Shown one piece after another: positions 15,313-25,149 of a DNA stretch of 45,694 nucleotides (position 1 is the stretch's first letter; the number at the start of each line of letters is the position of its first letter). A model generated the notes under the pieces. It searched no databases. It had not been told where the DNA came from and worked only from the letters and a program-made list of their open reading frames with translations. The DNA comes from Verrucomicrobiota bacterium (lineage in GTDB: Bacteria; Verrucomicrobiota; Verrucomicrobiia; Limisphaerales; PALSA-1396): NCBI GenBank assembly GCA_016200005.1, contig JACQFP010000025.1, positions 1-45,694 on the forward strand, read 5' to 3'. Both the position numbers and the translations under genes were made by a program.

Positions 15313-15663
15313 ACACTTCACCGCCAGAACCCTTCACAAACCCTTCAAACCCTTCATGGGCACGGGCAGGCAAGACATTTACTGCTCGGAAATGCGCCGC
15401 AAACACGCCCGATGTGCCACCCGGCGGAATGAGACATTTATGGGACATCGGTCTCCCTCGAATCCCCAGAGGCAAGTCAGCGCTGACATGCCTGTCGCCC
15501 CTGCTCGTGTTTCGCGCGGGCAGACTATGTAGTGCGGCGCATACAAGGGTGTCGCGGCAAAAGCTCGAGCAAGCTAAGCGCGAAATCATCGCGTCGCGTT
15601 ACTACGAGATTCCGGCTGATGCCTTGTCTGCCCCTGGAGGAACAAAATAGGAGAAAATCACTG
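15313..15663 (+). pseudogene. Scar with remnant of a second DUF3883 helicase C-terminus
   Basis: An open frame (15309-15650) runs through, but only its end is recognisable. Codons 15561-15626 spell KLEQAKREIIASRYYEIPAD and AL, matching the last residues of the helicase ending at 13835. Over 66 bases there are 11 differences, all at third codon positions, so this is a diverged homologous end and not a fresh copy. Upstream are several copies of the phrase ACCCTTCA (about 15290-15355) and otherwise unrecognised sequence. Most likely a recombination remnant left when genes in this operon were exchanged. Confidence 0.6.
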
Positions 15664-18279
15664 ATGGCACAGAAGGGACTTTTCAAAACGGAGTTTGAAG
15701 ATGGCGGCTGCCCAGCAAATCCGGAGCTTCTATTTCATGATCTCAAGGCGCGTGCGGAAGAGATTCGCCACTTGTGGTCTCACCAGGCCGATTTACTTCG
15801 CGCTTACACGAAGGAGCATCTTCACACCCCCGACATAGCGTTGGAACTGCCGACGGGTGCGGGCAAAACATTGGTCGCACTGCTCATCGCAGAATTTCGG
15901 AGGCGAAAATTTGATGACCGGGTCGCATACCTGTGCCCGACCCGTCAACTCGCCAACCAAGTTGGCGGGCAGGCGAAGCGATACGGCATAAAAGCACACG
16001 TTCTCGTCGGTAAACAAAGGGATTACAATGCTGAAGAGTTCGATGATTACCAAAGAGGCAGCGCCATCGCGGTAACGACCTACAGCGGATTGTTCAATAC
16101 CAATCCACGCATCAAGGATCCCAGCACCATTGTCCTCGATGACGCGCATTCCTCTGAGAACTACATAAGCAGTATGTGGTCGGTTGAGCTGACACGGAAA
16201 GACCACGACGTGTTATTCAAGGCCATCGTTGACATCTTCGCCCCCCTCCTTCCGGCTTCATTCGCGACCAGATTGCGATCTGAAGAACCACCTGCGCTTT
16301 GGACGCGAGACATCGATATGGTTCCGGGGAAGCACCTTCGCGACCGGCTCCGCGCGTTGCGAGATCTGATCACTACACATTTGCCGGCGGACGACGATGC
16401 CTCTTATTCGTGGCAAATGATAGCAGACCATCTACCAGCCTGCAATTTGTTCATCAACTGGGGTGCGATATTGTTGCGTCCCATCATTCCGCCGGCTCAA
16501 ACCCACGCTCCCTTCGCCAGCGCAAAGCAGCGTGTTTACATGTCAGCCACGCTTGGTGCCGGTGGAGAGCTTGAGAGGATAACCGGTGTCCGGCAGATTC
16601 AAAGACTTCCGATCCCCGCAGGTTGGGATAAGCGTGGGTCGGGCAGAAGACTCTTTTTGATGCCTGAATTATCGTGTGATGAAACCGAAGCCCTCCAAAC
16701 AGCGGTCGATTCGGTTCAATCGGTCAAGCGCGCTCTGACTCTTGTTCCAAACGAAGCCGTACGACGCACAACCGTTACGATGTTTGAAGAGAGTGGCGTT
16801 CGGGTTTTAGGCCGTGAACACATCGAAGATTCGCTCGATTCGTTCACAAAGAGCGAAAACACAGTGCTTGTGTTGGCAAACAGATATGATGGGATTGACC
16901 TTCCAGATGAAAGCTGCCGTTTGCTGATCCGGATGGGATTACCAGTCGGGACGAATCTTCAGGAGTCTTTTCTGCTCACCCGACTTGCAGCGAGTTCGTT
17001 GTTACGGGATCGGATGCTCACACGCTTCACCCAAGGCGTTGGGCGATGTACTCGCTCGGATCGTGATTACTCAGCCGTGCTTTTGCTCGACAGAAATCTC
17101 ATAGACTTCGTGCTGCGCTCGGAGAACAGAAAAATTCTGCATCCTGAACTTCAGGCTGAACTTCAATTCGGCATGGAGAATTCGGACGGCAAATCTCGGC
17201 CGGATTTTGTCGCCTTGCTGGAGGCGCTTATCGAACAAGGCGAAGACTGGTCACATGCGGAGCGCGCTATCCTGAATTTGAGAAGCAAAAAGACTAAAGA
17301 GGAGGACCAAGTCGCCAAGAGATTAAAGAACGTGGCCGCCGACGAAGTTGATTTTGTTTATGCACTTTGGACGGGAAATCTCGAAAAGGCGCTGGAGAAA
17401 TCCAGATCCGTCTCAGACAATCTCGGCGGCAACGAAACCAAAGGTTACCGTGGTTGGTGGTACTACCTCGCTGCCGACGTTGCCACACAAGGACATGAAT
17501 CCAACAAGGCCGCGAGTTCGCTTCAAATTGCCAAAGACTATTACGCGAAGGCGGCAAATTGCTCGCTCTCGATTAGTTGGTTCGCTGAACTCGCCCGCCT
17601 TACGATAGCGGGGTCACCCATTGCTGACGCAGATGAATTGACACCGCTTGCGGTGGAAACGACGCGCCGACATTTGATCGAACTCGGTCTGACTGGCCAG
17701 AGATTCGACCAGCAAATGAAGTTGTTATTGGAAGAAATCATGTCAAAGGATCACGACACGTTTCAGCGGGGATTGAAAAGTCTTGGCGATCTCTTGGGCT
17801 TTGACAGTGATGCTCCTGATTCCACTGCTGACCCCGACTGCGTTTGGTCAATTGGAGACAAGCTTCACATCGCTCATGAGGTCAAAGTGGAACACTCGCC
17901 CGGAGACGAAATCGGTGCCAATGACGTGCGCCAGGCAGCAAGTCACGTCAATTGGGTCAAGGCGCACCGTCCGTGTTCCGCAGACTGCGAAGTTGTGTGT
18001 ATCATCGAATCGCCACGCCAAACTGTCGAAGCTGGCGCCATTCCTCATGCTGGCAACCTGTTTCACGCCAGCCCAACAATGGTCAAACAGTTGGCAGAGG
18101 AAAGCGTGTCAGTATTACGGTCAGTCAGAGCGTCGTCGCCGACGATGCAAGATGAAACCATGCTCGAAGCCATTCGGCAAGAAATGGCCAAGCACGGCCT
18201 CTTGCCACGCGACATCATACAGAAGTTCGCGCGGCAACTCGTGAGCAAAATGCCAGTCCAACCTCGAAAGAAGACTTGA
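15664..18279 (+). CDS. DEAD/DEAH-type helicase, defence-operon member
   Basis: 871 residues from ATG 15664, preceded by GGAG at a usable distance; the frame extends to 15532 through the scar described before. Walker A is LPTGAGKT at 62-69 and the Walker B-like box is DDAH at 159-162. A threonine-rich TTYSG motif and MSATLG (motif III) follow. The C-terminal helicase half has NRYDGIDLPDESCR and FTQGVGRCTRS (motif VI, XPD/DinG-flavoured). Residues about 540-871 carry unassigned domains rich in charged helices, with a strand pattern near 730-800 that might be a nuclease-like fold (weak). It follows the operon order between the DUF4062 gene and the GIY-YIG gene. Substrate and polarity are unknown. 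Confidence 0.85.
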   Translation: MAQKGLFKTEFEDGGCPANPELLFHDLKARAEEIRHLWSHQADLLRAYTKEHLHTPDIALELPTGAGKTLVALLIAEFRRRKFDDRVAYLCPTRQLANQVGGQAKRYGIKAHVLVGKQRDYNAEEFDDYQRGSAIAVTTYSGLFNTNPRIKDPSTIVLDDAHSSENYISSMWSVELTRKDHDVLFKAIVDIFAPLLPASFATRLRSEEPPALWTRDIDMVPGKHLRDRLRALRDLITTHLPADDDASYSWQMIADHLPACNLFINWGAILLRPIIPPAQTHAPFASAKQRVYMSATLGAGGELERITGVRQIQRLPIPAGWDKRGSGRRLFLMPELSCDETEALQTAVDSVQSVKRALTLVPNEAVRRTTVTMFEESGVRVLGREHIEDSLDSFTKSENTVLVLANRYDGIDLPDESCRLLIRMGLPVGTNLQESFLLTRLAASSLLRDRMLTRFTQGVGRCTRSDRDYSAVLLLDRNLIDFVLRSENRKILHPELQAELQFGMENSDGKSRPDFVALLEALIEQGEDWSHAERAILNLRSKKTKEEDQVAKRLKNVAADEVDFVYALWTGNLEKALEKSRSVSDNLGGNETKGYRGWWYYLAADVATQGHESNKAASSLQIAKDYYAKAANCSLSISWFAELARLTIAGSPIADADELTPLAVETTRRHLIELGLTGQRFDQQMKLLLEEIMSKDHDTFQRGLKSLGDLLGFDSDAPDSTADPDCVWSIGDKLHIAHEVKVEHSPGDEIGANDVRQAASHVNWVKAHRPCSADCEVVCIIESPRQTVEAGAIPHAGNLFHASPTMVKQLAEESVSVLRSVRASSPTMQDETMLEAIRQEMAKHGLLPRDIIQKFARQLVSKMPVQPRKKT

Positions 18280-18317: not shown

Positions 18318-19001
18318 ATGGCGGCCAAAAAGAAAAAAGACCAGGGGCAGAAAATAATCGCCAACATGGGGCTTTTCTGGAAGCGCGATTGGGTTCGTTG
18401 GAAAGGTGATCGCGGCATCGGTCGTGCGCGTCTTGCGGGTAAGCGGCGGTATGCCAAGACGCAGGGTGAGGTGGATTTTTGGACGCAGACCGGCATTTAC
18501 TCTCTCTACGCTGATTATCGTTTGGTTTATGTCGGGCAGGCAGGCTTGTCTGACAAAAGCTGTCTCGGCAACCGGCTCAAAGCGCATCTTTCGGACGATC
18601 TCGCCGGACGTTGGGATATGTTTTCTTGGTTTGGCCTTCAGAAAGTCAGGACCACCGACAACAAGGTCGGCACACGCAAACAGGTCAATGTTTCCTCGCG
18701 CAGTCACCTTGCCAATGTTTTGGAGGGAATCATCATTGAGGTCGCCGAACCACCTATGAACAGCCAAAAAGGCCGGTTCGGCAAACGGGTCGAAAGATAT
18801 ATCCAAGTGGACGACAGCGTTGAACTCGCAGCCGAGATTCAAAAGGAAATTATCGGCAAGGTTGAAGAATTGGATGAGCAACTCAAAACAACCAGAAAGC
18901 AGCTAAAGGAAGCAGTCAGGCAAGCGTCGTCCACGATGCAACATAAAATCAGCAACACCAGAAAACGTCTTACAAAAGCCATCAAAAAAGTTTCCAAATG
19001 A
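18318..19001 (+). CDS. GIY-YIG nuclease with coiled-coil tail
   Basis: 227 residues with a good Shine-Dalgarno (AGGA) before ATG 18318. The GIY-YIG core is GIY at 59-61, YVG at 71-73, Arg86, His90 and Glu136, the expected catalytic set. About 70 charged residues follow that look like a helical or coiled-coil tail. The stop overlaps the start of the DNA methylase gene by ATGA, so the two are translationally coupled. A nuclease coupled to a DNA methylase recalls restriction-modification or DISARM-like logic, with the methylase marking self DNA (inference). The N-terminal 55 residues are basic and may bind DNA. Confidence 0.82.
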   Translation: MAAKKKKDQGQKIIANMGLFWKRDWVRWKGDRGIGRARLAGKRRYAKTQGEVDFWTQTGIYSLYADYRLVYVGQAGLSDKSCLGNRLKAHLSDDLAGRWDMFSWFGLQKVRTTDNKVGTRKQVNVSSRSHLANVLEGIIIEVAEPPMNSQKGRFGKRVERYIQVDDSVELAAEIQKEIIGKVEELDEQLKTTRKQLKEAVRQASSTMQHKISNTRKRLTKAIKKVSK

Positions 19002-22000
19002 CTTACGACGACCGCCGTTTAATCGAAGACTACCTGCCGATTCAGGCCATCAGTGCCGAGGCGTCGCGCGAGAAGTCTCCACGCAAGGGACACATCTCCA
19101 CGCTGCATTTGTGGTGGGCGCGGCGACCGCTCGTCGCCTGCCGGGCGGCGGTGTACGGCGCACTCGTGCCGGCATCACAGTTTGTGCCTGCCTGCGCCGA
19201 CAAGGCAGGCAGGCCGAATGGTGGGTCGGATGCGCAGAAGAAAAGTTTGGGACGAGCGAACGCGGCCAAGTTCATCGAGCGGTTGTGCCAGTATCCCGGC
19301 TCGCCAGATGTCATCAAGGAAGCACAAGAGCACATCCTCAAGGCACACGCGGAACGGTTGAGCCGCGAGACGGGCAAGCCGGTCACGGTGGAAGACATTG
19401 TGGCGGGACGCGCGCCCCTGCCTGCGCCGCGCCCGGGGAAGTTCTTCATTTATGTAATCAAGTGTTCCGATGATTCGTTTTACATCGGCCAGACTGACAA
19501 TGTTCCGCGCCGGTTTGAGGAACACAACCAAGGCAAAGTTGAATGGACTTCTTCTCGTCGGCCATTGCAGGTTATTCACTACGAGGAATTCGATTCACGC
19601 GAGGAGGCGGTGACGAGGGAAAAGGAATTGAAAACCGGATTCGGTCGGCAATGGCTCAAGAGAGAATATGCAGCGGGCAGGCTTGCGGCGCGGCAGGCAG
19701 GGCGTCCGAAAGTGCTCGATATGTTTGCGGGCGGCGGGGCGATTCCGCTCGAAGCGTTGCGGCTCGGCTGCGAATCGTATGCGCTCGACCTCAATCCGGT
19801 CGCGCACATCATCCAGCTTTGCACACTGGTTTATCCGCAGAAATTCGGTAAGCCCGATCCGAACGCGAAAGGTTCGGCGAAGGATGGCACTTGGGCCGGA
19901 CTCGCGGCGGAAGTCGAGCATTGGGGCAACTGGGTGCTGAAAAAAGTGAAGGCAGAGATTGGCGACCTGTATCCGCCGATTCCCGACCCGCAAGCGAGCG
20001 GCGAAGAACTTGGCAGCGACCCGCAGGGGACGATGGGTTTTGCGGAAGACCCGCAGCAGAAGCTCAAAGCGAAGCGCGGTTTCCTGACTCCCGTAGCGTA
20101 TCTGTGGACGCGGACCGTGCAATGCAAGAATCCCGCGTGCAACGCGACCGTGCCGCTGGTGAAACAAACCTGGCTTTCCAAAAAGAAAGATCACTTCGTA
20201 GCCATGCGTCTGGTCGCGCCCAAAGGCGAAAAGCGCGTGCGGTTTGAAATCGTCCAAGGGCGCAGTGAAGCCGGTTTGGGCTTCGACCCTACGGCCTTTT
20301 CAAAGGAGGGGAATGCGACCTGTCCGTTTTGTGGGGCAGTTGCGGATTCGGACTATGTGCAAGAGCAAGGAATACGAAAGAGAGTCGGGTCTCAACTTCT
20401 CGCGTTTGTCTGCCGAAGTGCGAACAAATCAGGATCGGTGTTTGTTGGCGAACTGGACGCGCCAAGAGGATTGCTGCCTACAGCCGCCAACATTGAAAAA
20501 CGCATCGAAGAAACTACGAGCAGAGCGAATATCTCGATTCCAGCCGAAGAAATCAGCCCGCTGCGGCCTTCGCCGAATGCGCGTGGCATGACCGCCCCAA
20601 CACGGCACGGGCTTACCACCTTGGGAGACTTATTTAACCGAAGACAACTGCTCTCTCTTCTCACGCAATGTGGTGCTGTTAGGTGCGCCCATGCTGAAAT
20701 GCGAACCACTGGCTACGACGAGGAGCGGAGCAAAGCAGTGGCAACTTTTCTTGGAATTGTTGTTGACCGTATGGCCGATCGCGGAAGTTCGCTTTGCAGG
20801 TGGGACCCCGGATACACAAAAACACAATCCACCTTTGGCCGCCCAGCACTACCATTCGTGTGGGACTATTCCGAAACCAATCCGTTCGGTGATGCCTCGG
20901 GAGATATGTCCCAAGCCATAGACTGGGTGCGAGCGGTCATTGACGAAACCGCGATACTTCATAGCTACGCGAGAGTTGAGCGCGGCTCTGCGCATCAGTT
21001 GAGTAGCGCCGACGCCAACTTTGACGCTGTGATTTCTGACCCTCCTTACTACGACAACGTTCCTTACGCCGATATTTCAGACTTTTTTTACGTTTGGCTC
21101 AAGCGGTCGATTGGCTTTCTCCACCCTGAGCACTTCGGCACTGAGCTAACTCCGAAGAAGGCGGAAATCACTGCGCTGTCATCACGATTCGGCGGGGACA
21201 TGGCTGCAGCCAGTTCCAACTATGAACAAATGATGTTTCTCTCGCTCACCGAGGCAAATCGCGTACTGAAGGCGAATGGTGAGTTGGTCATCGTCTATGC
21301 CCACAAGACGACTTTAGGTTGGGCGACTCTGGTTGATGCCTTGAGGCGTTCGGGTTTTACCGTGGTTGAAGCGTGGCCGCTCGATACGGAATTCGGCGGG
21401 AGGTTGATGGCAATGGATTCGGCTGCGTTAGCTTCCAGCATTTTCCTTATTGCCCGAAAACGCGACGGTGCAAAGACCGGTTCATACGAAGATGAAATTC
21501 GCCCGGAGTTGGAGCAAATCGTGCGCGAGCGCGTAGAAACGCTCTGGCGCATGGGCATCACCGGCGCGGATTTAATCATCGCCGCCGTCGGTGCGGGTCT
21601 GCGCGCGTTCACGCGCTTTGCCCGCGTCGAGTATGCCAACGGCGAGGAAGTACCAGCGGAAAAATTTCTCGGCGAAGTGGAAAGCGTGGTGCTGGAGACA
21701 TTGTTGGAAAAGATTTTCGGTGTGGCCAGCAGCCGCGTGGCGGCGGTGGACGGGCCAAGCCGGTTTTACGTCTTGTGGCGCTACGCGTATCGCACGGCGG
21801 AACTGGACGCGGGCGAGGCCATCGTCTTCACCTACGGCCAGCCGGTGGAATTGGAAGGCGCGGATGGACTGGCGAACGGCACACTATCGCTGGTGGAAAA
21901 GAAAAAGGGCAAGTATCGCCTGCGCGATTACACCGAACGCGGCCCGCTGGAAAAACTTGGTCTGCCGAACGACGAGGGCAAGCCCGCACCGCTGCTTGAC

Positions 22001-22258
22001 TCACTGCATCGGCTGCTCTGGCTGATGGAAAACGAACCACGCAAGCTGCCCACCTTCCTGGACGAGGCCCGCCCCGACCGCGAACGACTTCGACTCGTAG
22101 CCCAAGCATTGGCCGGCGCGGGATTGTCCGGCGGCAGCGAGGACCAGACTGGGGTCGTGAATACGACAGCCGCAGAGCAGGCCGCGCTCGGCAAGCTGCT
22201 CGCAAATTGGCGTGCGCTCGTGCCCGAAACCTTGTTCACTGCTGCCGGGAAATCTTGA
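18998..22258 (+). CDS. DUF1156 (COG1743-type) adenine DNA methylase with internal GIY-YIG insertion
   Basis: 1086 residues. The N-terminus (LPIQAISAEASREKS, LHLWWARRPL) is DUF1156. The SAM-binding motif DMFAGGG is at 241-247 and the catalytic motif DPPY at 681-684, the order of N6-adenine methylases. Cysteine pairs near residues 375-440 suggest Zn-ribbon elements. Between the DUF1156 part and the SAM motif lies a complete GIY-YIG domain (about 147-222: FIYVIK, FYIGQT, R..EH, EKELK) in frame. Family homologues run from the N-terminal part into the SAM motif directly, so this is an insertion. A palindrome (19186-19214) also adds residues near 64-72. Coupled to the preceding GIY-YIG gene and followed 5 bases later by the DUF499 gene, its usual partner. 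Whether the methylase is active is uncertain. Confidence 0.9.
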   Translation: MTYDDRRLIEDYLPIQAISAEASREKSPRKGHISTLHLWWARRPLVACRAAVYGALVPASQFVPACADKAGRPNGGSDAQKKSLGRANAAKFIERLCQYPGSPDVIKEAQEHILKAHAERLSRETGKPVTVEDIVAGRAPLPAPRPGKFFIYVIKCSDDSFYIGQTDNVPRRFEEHNQGKVEWTSSRRPLQVIHYEEFDSREEAVTREKELKTGFGRQWLKREYAAGRLAARQAGRPKVLDMFAGGGAIPLEALRLGCESYALDLNPVAHIIQLCTLVYPQKFGKPDPNAKGSAKDGTWAGLAAEVEHWGNWVLKKVKAEIGDLYPPIPDPQASGEELGSDPQGTMGFAEDPQQKLKAKRGFLTPVAYLWTRTVQCKNPACNATVPLVKQTWLSKKKDHFVAMRLVAPKGEKRVRFEIVQGRSEAGLGFDPTAFSKEGNATCPFCGAVADSDYVQEQGIRKRVGSQLLAFVCRSANKSGSVFVGELDAPRGLLPTAANIEKRIEETTSRANISIPAEEISPLRPSPNARGMTAPTRHGLTTLGDLFNRRQLLSLLTQCGAVRCAHAEMRTTGYDEERSKAVATFLGIVVDRMADRGSSLCRWDPGYTKTQSTFGRPALPFVWDYSETNPFGDASGDMSQAIDWVRAVIDETAILHSYARVERGSAHQLSSADANFDAVISDPPYYDNVPYADISDFFYVWLKRSIGFLHPEHFGTELTPKKAEITALSSRFGGDMAAASSNYEQMMFLSLTEANRVLKANGELVIVYAHKTTLGWATLVDALRRSGFTVVEAWPLDTEFGGRLMAMDSAALASSIFLIARKRDGAKTGSYEDEIRPELEQIVRERVETLWRMGITGADLIIAAVGAGLRAFTRFARVEYANGEEVPAEKFLGEVESVVLETLLEKIFGVASSRVAAVDGPSRFYVLWRYAYRTAELDAGEAIVFTYGQPVELEGADGLANGTLSLVEKKKGKYRLRDYTERGPLEKLGLPNDEGKPAPLLDSLHRLLWLMENEPRKLPTFLDEARPDRERLRLVAQALAGAGLSGGSEDQTGVVNTTAAEQAALGKLLANWRALVPETLFTAAGKS
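19186..19214. repeat. GC-rich palindrome inside the methylase gene
   Basis: GCCTGCCTGC (19186-19195) and GCAGGCAGGC (19205-19214) form a perfect 10-bp stem with a 9-base loop, inside the coding frame. Similar halves flank the GIY-YIG insertion at 19419-19441 and 19680-19703. Confidence 0.75.
19419..19703 (+). mobile_element. In-frame GIY-YIG element flanked by inverted repeats
   Basis: The DNA between about 19419 and 19703 encodes a small UvrC-type GIY-YIG domain continuous with the methylase frame. The left flank reads CGCCCCTGCCTGCGCCGCG and the right flank, in reverse complement, reads CGCCCTGCCTGCCGCGCCG, so the domain is bounded by imperfect inverted repeats of the same CCTGCCTGC type as the nearby lone palindrome. 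I infer a small mobile unit that kept the host gene open; it may be spliced neither as RNA nor as protein. Confidence 0.6.
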
Positions 22259-22263
22259 TTGGC

Positions 22264-25149
22264 ATGAGCGTTCACTCATTAAAGCCTTGGACCGAGTTGG
22301 TGAAACTCCACCCCGACGTGGAGGCGGGCAATCTGCCCGAAGCGGTGTTTGCCATTGATCTCGGTGCGATTGCGGAGCGCGACCCGGTTGTGCCGGTCGT
22401 GAACCGTGAGCCGCAGGCATTCTTCCGCGCAACCTACCTCACGGTGGATTTGCGGAAGCTGCTGGAGGAAGTGCTCGCGTCGCTGGCAGGCAAGCCGGAT
22501 TTCAATCGCGTGCTCAAATTGCGCACTCCGTTTGGCGGCGGCAAATCGCACACGCTGGCAGCGCTGCTCCACGCGGCCCGGGATCGCGCGGCGCTGAATG
22601 TTCTGCCGGAAGCGGCAGGCCTGCCCGACCCCGGAAAAATGGACGTGGCGGTATTCGACGGCGAGAAGTTTGACGCGCGCGACGGCAAAACGCTGCCGGA
22701 TGGACGGAAGATTCAAACGATGTGGGGCTGGATCGCATGGCAAATTGGCGCGGATAAATTCAAGTTGGTCGAAAACCACGACAAGGACCGCGTCTCTCCC
22801 GGTGGAGATGTCATTAGACAAATGCTCGCGGGCAGTCCGAAACTGATTCTGCTGGACGAGGTATTGAAATACATGGAGCGGGCTTCAGCCGTCGCAGTGC
22901 TCGACTCGACATTGCAGCGACAGGCGAAGGATTTTTTCCAGAATCTCACGGTCGAGGTCGCGGGAAGCAAAAACGCAGCGATGGTTTATTCGCTGCAATG
23001 GAGCGCGCGTGAATCACTCGGCAACGTGGCGCTCTTGCAGGAGATAGACAAGCTGGCGTCGCGCGTGGACCAGTTGCGCGAACCGGTCACGGGTGATGAA
23101 GTGCTCCACGTTCTTCATCGCCGCTTGCTCGGCGGGCCGCCTCCTGCCGCTGCCGCCCAGGAAGTTTCGGAGAGTTACAGCAAGGTGGTGACGGGAATGC
23201 GCCAGGCTCACGCGGAGACGCTGTCCGACCGCCAACACGCCGAACAGGAAGGGCTGGCGTTGCTCAACCGTATGAAGGCTGCTTACCCGTTTCATCCCGC
23301 GTTGATTGACGTGATGCGCGAGCGATGGGCGGCGGTGGACCAATTTCAGCGCACGCGCGGCGCATTGAAGTTTTTGTCCTCATGCCTCCACGCGCTGAAG
23401 CAAGATGGAGGAGCGCGAGCACTGTTAGGACCGGCGGAGATTCCGCTCAAGAACGTTGAGGTGCGCGTCAAGATGTTGAAGGAACTCGGCGTGCAGAACG
23501 ATTACGATGCCGTCATTTCCGCCGACATCGAAGGGCCGAGCGCACGGGCTAAACGGATTGACGAGCGATTGGCGCGGGAAACGCCCGCGTTGGCGAACGT
23601 AAAGCCGGCGACGCGGCTGGCAACGGCGATTTTAGTTTATTCTTTCGGTGGATTGCGGCGAGCGGGCGCTGGCACGGAGGAAACTCTGCCATCGGGAGTC
23701 ACCGAGACCGAGTTGCTTTCATCATGCGTCGGGCCGGACCTGGACAGCATCACGGCCAGCGCTGTGTTGTCGGAATTGCGCTCGGCCTGTCTTTATCTGC
23801 ACTTCGATGGCGTTCGCTACTGTTTCAAGAAAGACCCGAACGTCACCAAGCTAATTGAGGACGCGGAACAGGAAGTCACCCGTGAAGACACCGCCAATCC
23901 AAAAGCCGGGCCGGTGCGCTCGGCCATCAAGGAATTGCTCGAAAAGCGGCTGGCGGGAAAACAGGCCATCGTGTGGCCGGAAGCCAGTGGCGAAATCCCC
24001 AATGACGAACCGCGTTTTCTGGTCGCGTATCTGCCGTTGGAGTTCGCGGCCGAAACCAGGGCCGAACAGGAGAAACGAGGGCTGGCGTTGCTGACCCAAT
24101 ATGGAGACAAGCCGCGCCGATACCGCAACGGCATCGGGCTTGCCATTCCTGAGAAGAAACAAGTCGAGGCTCTCCGGCGCGCCATGCGCTACCTTCTCGC
24201 GATTGACCGCGTGGAGGGTCAAAAGGCGAAGCACCGATTGAGCAAAGATCAGTTGGACCAGTTGCGCGAGCGGCGGCGCACGGAAGAGGCGGCAGCGGAG
24301 TCGGCGCTGCGGAATCTCTATACATCAATCTGGCTGTTGCGGATGGAGTCGGGCGCGCCCGCGCTCGACAAAGTGGAAATCGGCGGACGCCCGCTACAAG
24401 CAACAGGCGTTCACGAACGCATCATGGAATTACTGATGAATGTCGGGACGCCGAAAGTTCACGCAACGGTTACGGCCGCGAAGTTGATGCAGCGCGTGAA
24501 GCTCGGCGAATCGGTTGCGACGGGCGAAGCCCCACGGCTGCTGATCAAGGCTGGTGACGTGTTGAATGCGTTTTTCGAGTTTCTCGAACCACCGCGCATC
24601 TTGTCTGCTGACGTGCTGAAGAAGGCCATCGTCAAAGGCGTCGGTGATGCTCAGTTCGCATGGTTCAGCGGCGCAACACCGCAGATCGGCCCTGACAACC
24701 GCGTGCAGGTCAGCCGTGAGAAAATCGTTTTTGGTCGAACCATCGTCGAGGACGAAGTTGATTTCGAGACCGGCTGGTTGATTGCGCCGGTCGCATTGCC
24801 TCAAGTGGCCCCCGCGTCGGCGCAACCGGGACAAATGCAGGAACAACCGGGCGCAGCCACGGCAAGTCCGTCGTCCGCGACGAGTGCCGGAGGAACGCCA
24901 GGCACCGGGCAACCTGCTCAAACCGCTGCTGTGCGAATGAACGTTTCGCTGCGGTTTACCGCTACACGAAATCAGATTTTCAAGGCGTTCCCTGCCATCG
25001 CGAATCTAGCCGACAAGTCAGACGGCGGCGAAATCACGGTTCAGGTCGAAGGGACAAGCGCAAAAGGCTTCGACACCGCATGGCTGCGGAACGCCGTCGA
25101 GGAGCCGCTCGACGAGGCAGACGTAAAACGGTCGGACGATTCACAGTGA
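22264..25149 (+). CDS. DUF499 (COG1483-type) AAA-like ATPase
   Basis: 961 residues from ATG 22264 (MSVHSLKPW), 5 bases after the methylase stop; the frame reaches further upstream but there overlaps the methylase. The N-terminus with FAIDLG and the Walker A motif FGGGKSHT (residues 90-97) and Walker B LILLDE (194-199) are the DUF499 signature. Residues about 860-895 are a Pro/Ala/Gln-rich linker, and the last 70 form a small separate domain. DUF499 ATPases sit beside DUF1156 methylases and SNF2-type helicases in predicted defence cassettes (including those described as DISARM-related arrays). The role is thought to be ATP-driven remodelling of bound DNA, which is not shown here. Confidence 0.9.
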   Translation: MSVHSLKPWTELVKLHPDVEAGNLPEAVFAIDLGAIAERDPVVPVVNREPQAFFRATYLTVDLRKLLEEVLASLAGKPDFNRVLKLRTPFGGGKSHTLAALLHAARDRAALNVLPEAAGLPDPGKMDVAVFDGEKFDARDGKTLPDGRKIQTMWGWIAWQIGADKFKLVENHDKDRVSPGGDVIRQMLAGSPKLILLDEVLKYMERASAVAVLDSTLQRQAKDFFQNLTVEVAGSKNAAMVYSLQWSARESLGNVALLQEIDKLASRVDQLREPVTGDEVLHVLHRRLLGGPPPAAAAQEVSESYSKVVTGMRQAHAETLSDRQHAEQEGLALLNRMKAAYPFHPALIDVMRERWAAVDQFQRTRGALKFLSSCLHALKQDGGARALLGPAEIPLKNVEVRVKMLKELGVQNDYDAVISADIEGPSARAKRIDERLARETPALANVKPATRLATAILVYSFGGLRRAGAGTEETLPSGVTETELLSSCVGPDLDSITASAVLSELRSACLYLHFDGVRYCFKKDPNVTKLIEDAEQEVTREDTANPKAGPVRSAIKELLEKRLAGKQAIVWPEASGEIPNDEPRFLVAYLPLEFAAETRAEQEKRGLALLTQYGDKPRRYRNGIGLAIPEKKQVEALRRAMRYLLAIDRVEGQKAKHRLSKDQLDQLRERRRTEEAAAESALRNLYTSIWLLRMESGAPALDKVEIGGRPLQATGVHERIMELLMNVGTPKVHATVTAAKLMQRVKLGESVATGEAPRLLIKAGDVLNAFFEFLEPPRILSADVLKKAIVKGVGDAQFAWFSGATPQIGPDNRVQVSREKIVFGRTIVEDEVDFETGWLIAPVALPQVAPASAQPGQMQEQPGAATASPSSATSAGGTPGTGQPAQTAAVRMNVSLRFTATRNQIFKAFPAIANLADKSDGGEITVQVEGTSAKGFDTAWLRNAVEEPLDEADVKRSDDSQ

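Follow-up and report, generated by a model that had tools for sequence, protein, structure and literature searches.

A GIY-YIG nuclease domain between palindromic DNA ends, in frame in a DUF1156 methylase gene and in unrelated genes: a possible new kind of mobile element

We analyzed a stretch of 45,694 nucleotides (the window; contig JACQFP010000025.1 of assembly GCA_016200005.1, Verrucomicrobiota bacterium) in which a DNA methylase gene carries an in-frame insert, made up of a small GIY-YIG nuclease domain and palindromic DNA ends. The host gene (18998–22258; like its inserts and the two neighbours named below, on the plus strand) encodes an HmaB-like DUF1156 DNA methylase of 1086 residues (Pfam DUF1156 at residues 12–65, E 5.4e-24; PADLOC HmaB, E 2.9e-125). 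It is a bacterial anti-virus (defence) gene, and the insert leaves it open. The complete element spans 19417–19701, i.e., 285 nt or 95 codons. It starts with the left arm CCTGCCTGCGCCGCG (19417–19431), read as LPAP, and ends with the right arm CGCGGCAGGCAGG (19689–19701), read as ARQA; the 9-nt inverted repeats around the domain are CCTGCCTGC (19417–19425) and GCAGGCAGG (19693–19701), respectively. Between the arms lies a UPF0213-like GIY-YIG catalytic domain (19442–19642, host residues 149–215; Pfam E 2.3e-15). Immediately 3' of the insert we read the motif VLDMFAGGGAIPLEA, which we take to be of the S-adenosylmethionine (SAM) type. The same gene also has a lone palindrome of this family, CCTGCCTGCGCCGACAAGGCAGGCAGG (19187–19213, 27 nt), which lies 203 nt upstream of the element and encodes PACADKAGR in frame. 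A preliminary description, made from the sequence of the window, had placed a complete GIY-YIG domain in frame between DUF1156 and the SAM motif, with inverted-repeat flanks and a similar palindrome about 200 bases upstream, and all of this holds. The interval that it gave, 18998–19720, does contain the element, but also takes in the host N-terminus.

The edges of both inserts are defined by a DUF1156 homologue (G120:C72) that is 71% and 61% identical over two matched pieces and has neither of them. For the lone palindrome, ALVPASQFV-PACADKAGR-PNGG in the window compares with ALVPASLFI-PENG, and for the element GRAP-(95 residues)-RPKVLDMF compares with GKAP-RPMVLDMF, which fixes its length at exactly 285 nt, as an alignment with insert-free homologues had been expected to do. 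The site is also empty in genes from Nitrospira, Planktothrix and Geminocystis; among the homologues compared, the domain is hence not a normal part of DUF1156 proteins. Both inserts are multiples of three in length, and of the six frames of the 285-nt unit, the host's is the only one that is open. In the window copy, the stretch from the left arm to the nuclease motif has no in-frame ATG, GTG or TTG, so that this copy is translated either as part of the host protein or from a start codon in host sequence. In relatives described below, the same interval holds an in-frame GTG (L141) or TTG (L129), and L126 has a GTG inside the motif.

The arm sequence CCTGCCTGC occurs five times in the window against 0.41 expected, a number reached in none of 100 shuffles. 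Four of the matches are the two arm pairs of the element and the lone palindrome. The fifth (18536–18544) lies in a neighbouring gene and may be due to chance; it stems from the VGQAG codons of a small gene before the methylase (18318–19001, TGIYSLY...VYVGQAG), which looks GIY-YIG-like by eye and has no Pfam GIY-YIG match. The lone palindrome folds better than all of 200 shuffles (z −3.9). The source genome, which had been suggested as a place to look for further copies, yielded none: the pattern CCTGCCTGCN{0,20}GCAGGCAGG occurs at a single place in its 6.54 Mb, the window site, so that the pair probably lies outside any native repeat stock of this genome. As a separate observation, the same genome contains a second small GIY-YIG frame with one internal TGA (L002, C20:165491-168697, at 1407–1794), which starts about 20 nt past the 3' end of a tRNA-Met gene; behind this frame there is an incomplete tRNA copy whose anticodon arm is replaced by a CCCCGAC-type palindrome.

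The nuclease domain is closest in sequence to UPF0213 proteins (PDB 1ywl, E 8e-17; 1zg2, E 1e-16), which we take to be the small GIY-YIG proteins of the YhbQ type. Its AlphaFold model is a confident GIY-YIG fold (predicted local distance difference test score, pLDDT, 88.6), and the nearest solved structures (1zg2, 1ywl, 6seh) are UPF0213 proteins and Slx1, at modest template-modelling (TM) scores of 0.49–0.59. Y12, Y22, G24, R32, H36 and E68 are invariant in an alignment of 12 elements; these are presumably the active-site residues. Among eight chosen pairs, the ratio of non-synonymous to synonymous substitution rates (dN/dS) of the nuclease was 0.10–0.23 in five, and in the other three dS was saturated, with a proportion of non-synonymous differences (pN) of 0.15–0.24. 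The nuclease is thus intact and under purifying selection. The 95 residues consist of the catalytic domain and the arms alone and contain no DNA-binding region separate from catalysis.

We searched genome contigs for relatives with the domains of the window and of a second Verrucomicrobia genome (G295) as queries. Six of the 13 loci found carry the nuclease with both arms or with recognisable arm remnants. These are a DUF1156 methylase of Nitrospira (L126), a type III methylase (Mod) of Parcubacteria (L127), an HsdM of Acetothermia that has lost the frame at the right end (L128), and three HsdR genes, i.e., a gene fragment in Verrucomicrobia (L129, from G295), a whole gene of 1184 codons in Chloroflexi (L130) and one in Lysobacterales (L137), which has a frameshift in the nuclease and was assigned by alignment with L129. 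Of the other seven loci, five were read (L131–L135) and have the domain in short frames. We also searched 293 genomes from the order of the window, 32 of which yielded a total of 34 matches at E ≤1e-12. The eight with E below 1e-26 are without exception in frame within longer open reading frames: the window, G295, HmaA (L141), HmaB (L142), HsdM (L143), a UvrD/PD-(D/E)XK protein (L144) and two HsdS (L145, L146). One more match, L158, is in a long frame and is taken up separately below; the remaining 25 lie in frames of at most 160 residues. In 379 genomes of the phylum of the Parcubacteria element, two matches reached E <1e-40, the known L127 and an in-frame copy in a RibD_C gene (L245, Pfam), and 400 Chloroflexota genomes gave no member of the clade beyond L130; among six loci read there from the next matches (L215–L217, L219, L221, L224), L216 has a 511-residue frame without such arms. 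Viral contigs were scanned twice at the protein level without yielding a relative, and a DNA pattern search of viral contigs (arms around a TAY codon) returned 14 stretches, in whose frames a profile search found no GIY-YIG domain. The element protein matched 16 plasmid and 24 phage records, with all identities below 60% among the matches listed (16 and 20, respectively).

In total we count 14 elements of 282–309 nt at about ten distinct sites in several phyla. By Pfam or PADLOC assignment (for L137, the alignment with L129), 12 hosts are restriction–modification (R-M) or HMA genes, one is the UvrD/PD-(D/E)XK gene and one the RibD_C gene. The searches were made by nuclease and not by host, and the bias toward R-M hosts is therefore no direct search artefact. 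R-M genes are not the exclusive hosts, as L245 shows. In a tree, elements of different host genes adjoin and several phyla are mixed; the HmaA and HmaB copies L141 and L142 are 78% identical, and HmaB L126 and HsdM L143 group at 94/78 support.

Insert-free plasmid homologues were aligned to define empty sites. The clearest case is HsdM L143, where PHAPD-(99 residues)-AWIDHEK compares with PHAQD-AWIDHDK in Allochromatium. At the DNA level, GA/T GCC becomes GA(CCTG...CAGG)T GCC, with no target-site duplication. In L144, 45 nt (15 codons) separate a full element from a lone palindrome of 33 nt; a Blastomonas helicase homologue has neither. Three junctions were compared in all, those of HsdM L143, the L144 lone palindrome and the window element, and none has a target-site duplication. 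Some positions recur: the three HsdR elements, from records of three phyla, occupy one identical site, which is empty in the HsdR of Ketogulonicigenium and of G390, and the DUF1156 site of the window is shared with L142, with L126 at another site. For the L141 helicase, no aligned homologue spans the site, and the alignments of L127 and of the HsdS genes are too loose for base-exact edges. Within the HsdR pair L129/L130, the element is 76% identical in amino acids, versus 32% and 40% for the flanks.

Across 10 elements, the codons for residues shared between two elements agree in 171 of 171 pairs in the LPAP arm and in 163 of 163 in the ARQA arm, versus 730 of 1991 in the core. Since arm codons are identical and core codons mostly differ, the ends are conserved as DNA, beyond the protein level, and protein constraint alone does not easily explain the arm codon identity.

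Palindromes without the nuclease are also found elsewhere. In the phylum sample, the pattern occurs in 22 of 387 genomes and a reversed control pattern in seven. The loci fetched contain 42 unique lone palindromes of more than 20 nt, including a 21-nt match (L074) that we take to resemble a native protein stretch, presumably of NadA, and set aside in the interpretation. Of the 42, 26 share the asymmetric CG bulge of the element's left arm, and 24 of these 26 have a length divisible by three, versus nine of the 16 others. The lone form mostly measures 27–36 nt, with variable loops. By pattern, the HsdR of G390 has three lone palindromes, all open in a single frame of 1129 residues; another is in frame in a DUF499 protein of G555, on a contig that also carries the HmaA element of that genome. 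One more is in frame in a polyprenyl synthetase gene (Pfam), and R-M genes are thus not the only ones to contain lone palindromes. There are also lone palindromes in intergenic DNA and in questionable frames. When the pattern was relaxed slightly, seven of 12 element-bearing genomes had between one and 65 matches. The 65 matches, some overlapping, belong to G456 (one in the reversed control), where many lone palindromes fall within other repeats, in frames that are short or doubtful. Several of them (L196–L212) sit inside a repeat that translates as PLTPALSHP..VGEG, i.e., palindromes are nested there. A contig of G295 (C52; L108, 1–4100) contains a 5' fragment of HsdR twice, with 98% identity between the copies over 221 nt. 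Both copies include the same 36-nt palindrome in frame, as well as a second palindrome of the form GTCTGCCTGTGCG..CAGACAGGC.

We conclude that the unit is probably a mobile, non-splicing, in-frame and protein-coding palindromic element with its own nuclease, and the insert class is possibly a new kind of mobile element. The same nuclease and DNA ends in unrelated genes, together with in-frame lone palindromes, support well the earlier proposal that the element uses palindromes and leaves host genes open; its other part, a homing-type element, is only plausible, in view of the single site shared by three HsdR genes. The palindrome-ended DNA would be the unit of movement, and the host protein would include the enzyme as one of its segments. 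The nuclease domain, perhaps structure-preferring given its relationship to UPF0213 and Slx1, would nick or cut at the hairpin, close to it or at an empty allele, and repair would then copy the element in. Lone palindromes would be nuclease-less relatives, either copies mobilised in trans or remnants after loss of the nuclease. Insertions that keep the frame would persist, and the element could spread with the host gene undestroyed.

Several observations weigh against this reading. As a single strand, the whole 285-nt unit folds only weakly better than shuffles (z −2.05; 8 of 200 as good). The nucleotides of L129 and L130 are 68% identical in the element versus 64% in the downstream flank, with only 15 bases aligned upstream; given this similar divergence, whole genes may have been transferred at the same-site cases. 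The number of independent events is reduced by common insertion sites and by the horizontal spread of R-M genes. The frame is lost in two of the 14 copies (L128 at the right end, L137 inside the nuclease), and the HsdR of G295 is itself a fragment. The left arm is altered in the HsdR copies L129 and L137 and absent from the HsdS copies L145 and L146, and five of the 12 element-bearing genomes have no lone palindrome, i.e., the pairing is not universal. The in-frame elements do not form one clean clade (three label changes, weak deep support), and most named sources are metagenome assemblies, in which mis-binning is possible. Movement, cutting and homing are inferred from sequence comparison.

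We weighed three other explanations. The GIY-YIG domain could be a second nuclease acquired by R-M proteins through ordinary domain fusion, with the repeats as accidental linkers. The 12 R-M or HMA hosts and the purifying selection on the nuclease would fit this, and GIY-YIG restriction enzymes exist (PMC2630997). It would, however, not account for arms conserved at synonymous positions, for lone palindromes with the same ends and no nuclease, for the copy in the RibD_C gene, or for positions that vary among homologous proteins and homologues that have no insert; we consider it unlikely. Alternatively, palindromes may have spread passively by replication slippage or template switching, and a nuclease trapped once between two of them may have been carried along. 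Lone palindromes are indeed frequent in some genomes, as in G456, and their loops vary, but the combination of nuclease and arms recurs as a whole, at about ten different sites across several phyla, and selection maintains the nuclease, which makes this a rather poor candidate.

An intein or self-splicing intron with a GIY-YIG endonuclease would likewise be in frame within conserved genes. Yet the 95 residues, from the LPAP start to the ARQAG end, leave no room for a splicing domain, and the frame is open across both junctions. The ends also do not have the junction residues expected of inteins. A search of Rfam with 18900–22300 gave no match up to E 1, hence no group I or II intron structure, and the Pfam results for the window and the relatives' proteins contain no intein family. 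On residue content, open frame and the Rfam result we reject this explanation, which is very improbable.

The methylase gene is preceded by a DEAD/ResIII helicase gene (15532–18279; Pfam), which matches PDC-S28 and not HmaA in PADLOC, and followed by a gene for an HmaC-like DUF499 ATPase (22207–25149; Pfam E 5.6e-32; PADLOC HmaC, E 5.8e-102). A 39-nt direct repeat, 74% identical, occurs near the 3' ends of two consecutive genes (18122–18160 and 18913–18951). Small free-standing GIY-YIG genes often follow a tRNA gene directly, within 60 nt in at least seven of 29 loci of the phylum (among L012–L040: L016, L018, L022, L024, L027, L034, L039; distances by hand). In the Parcubacteria phylum, a GIY-YIG gene lies within 150 nt behind a tRNA in eight of 28 loci (L250, L252, L255, L261, L262, L268, L271, L272). 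In L020, L022 and L034, the GIY-YIG gene and its flank are repeated in tandem.

Other nucleases were seen between other repeats. HsdM L128 (4254–5004; Pfam E 6.9e-38) and HsdR L137 (1–600, by eye) each carry an in-frame DUF559 nuclease between CCCTCACCC../..GGGAGAGGGG..GGGTGAGGG repeats, a second nuclease-plus-palindrome design. L158 (G437:C138), outside the 14 elements, is a long frame for an EcoEI-type HsdR. The GIY-YIG domain that it carries in frame belongs to another branch and lies between CTTCGGCAGGCTCAG-type repeats of the kind CTTCGGCAGGCTCAGCCACCG and its inverted partner GCCTGAGCCTGTCGAAG, the latter read from the translation PEPVEG.

A broader reading joins these observations, and we would put its chances somewhat below even. 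The element would be the first protein-coding palindrome with its own nuclease, self-driving and borrowing DNA binding from its host, with lone palindromes as trans-mobilised satellites; the principle would recur with other nucleases and repeats (DUF559 in L128, the GIY-YIG branch in L158), and small nucleases would be the long-missing movers of common bacterial palindromic repeats. Borrowed DNA binding would explain why 13 of the 14 hosts are DNA-handling enzymes, i.e., methylases, restriction translocases, specificity subunits and helicases. The copy in a RibD_C gene argues against this as a general rule.

To our knowledge, the question of how a protein-coding palindrome can get into a gene and leave it intact has been open ever since the Rickettsia palindromic elements were described. 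A nuclease that shares its ends with lone palindromes offers a testable mover. Defence genes would be the frequent home of a probably selfish element that leaves them open, and new peptide segments and domains may have a route into proteins across phyla. In the open-access literature, from titles and abstract openings among the matches listed, no work links GIY-YIG with such palindromes (subscription papers and preprints lie outside this search), and within that limit we regard the element as new.

It resembles several known systems in part. Repetitive extragenic palindromic (REP) sequences with their REP-associated tyrosine transposases (RAYT) likewise combine short bulged hairpins with a partner enzyme that is coded between similar repeats. 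The RAYT, however, belongs to the HUH (Y1) enzymes and most REPs lie outside genes, whereas here the enzyme is GIY-YIG and the nuclease form lies in frame within genes. UPF0213 proteins are the closest in sequence and among the closest in fold (1ywl, 1zg2), yet they are free-standing small proteins, in contrast to a domain coded inside a host protein. A derivative of a miniature inverted-repeat transposable element (MITE) or DDE-type transposon would share the inverted ends; the three junctions have no target-site duplication.

The Rickettsia palindromic elements (Ogata et al. 2000, 2002), as presented in the available text of a review (PMC10969869), are in-frame palindromes in many unrelated protein genes that are left open. 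The element and its lone relatives do the same in genes for HmaB (window), HsdR, HsdM, HsdS, Mod, HmaA, a UvrD-type protein and RibD_C, and, as lone palindromes, for a polyprenyl synthetase and a DUF499 protein. By description they are set apart: the former measure about 150 bp and come from Rickettsia, the latter mostly 27–36 nt (lone) and 282–309 nt (full) in other phyla, and the word nuclease is absent from the available review text, in contrast to the GIY-YIG domain found here. MITEs inserted in frame are known from Coxiella, with no nuclease partner mentioned in the text available to us (PMC5896051). With GIY-YIG homing endonucleases of the I-TevI type, as far as described in the accessible part of PMC3943268, the element shares a GIY-YIG domain with an intact active site in a mobile-looking insert, and the common insertion site in three HsdR genes is also homing-like. 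The phage GIY-YIG homing enzymes depend on a DNA-binding region (PMC3943268, same part). Unlike the I-TevI type, the element has no intron or intein and no separate DNA-binding region, and instead has palindromic ends and nuclease-less relatives.

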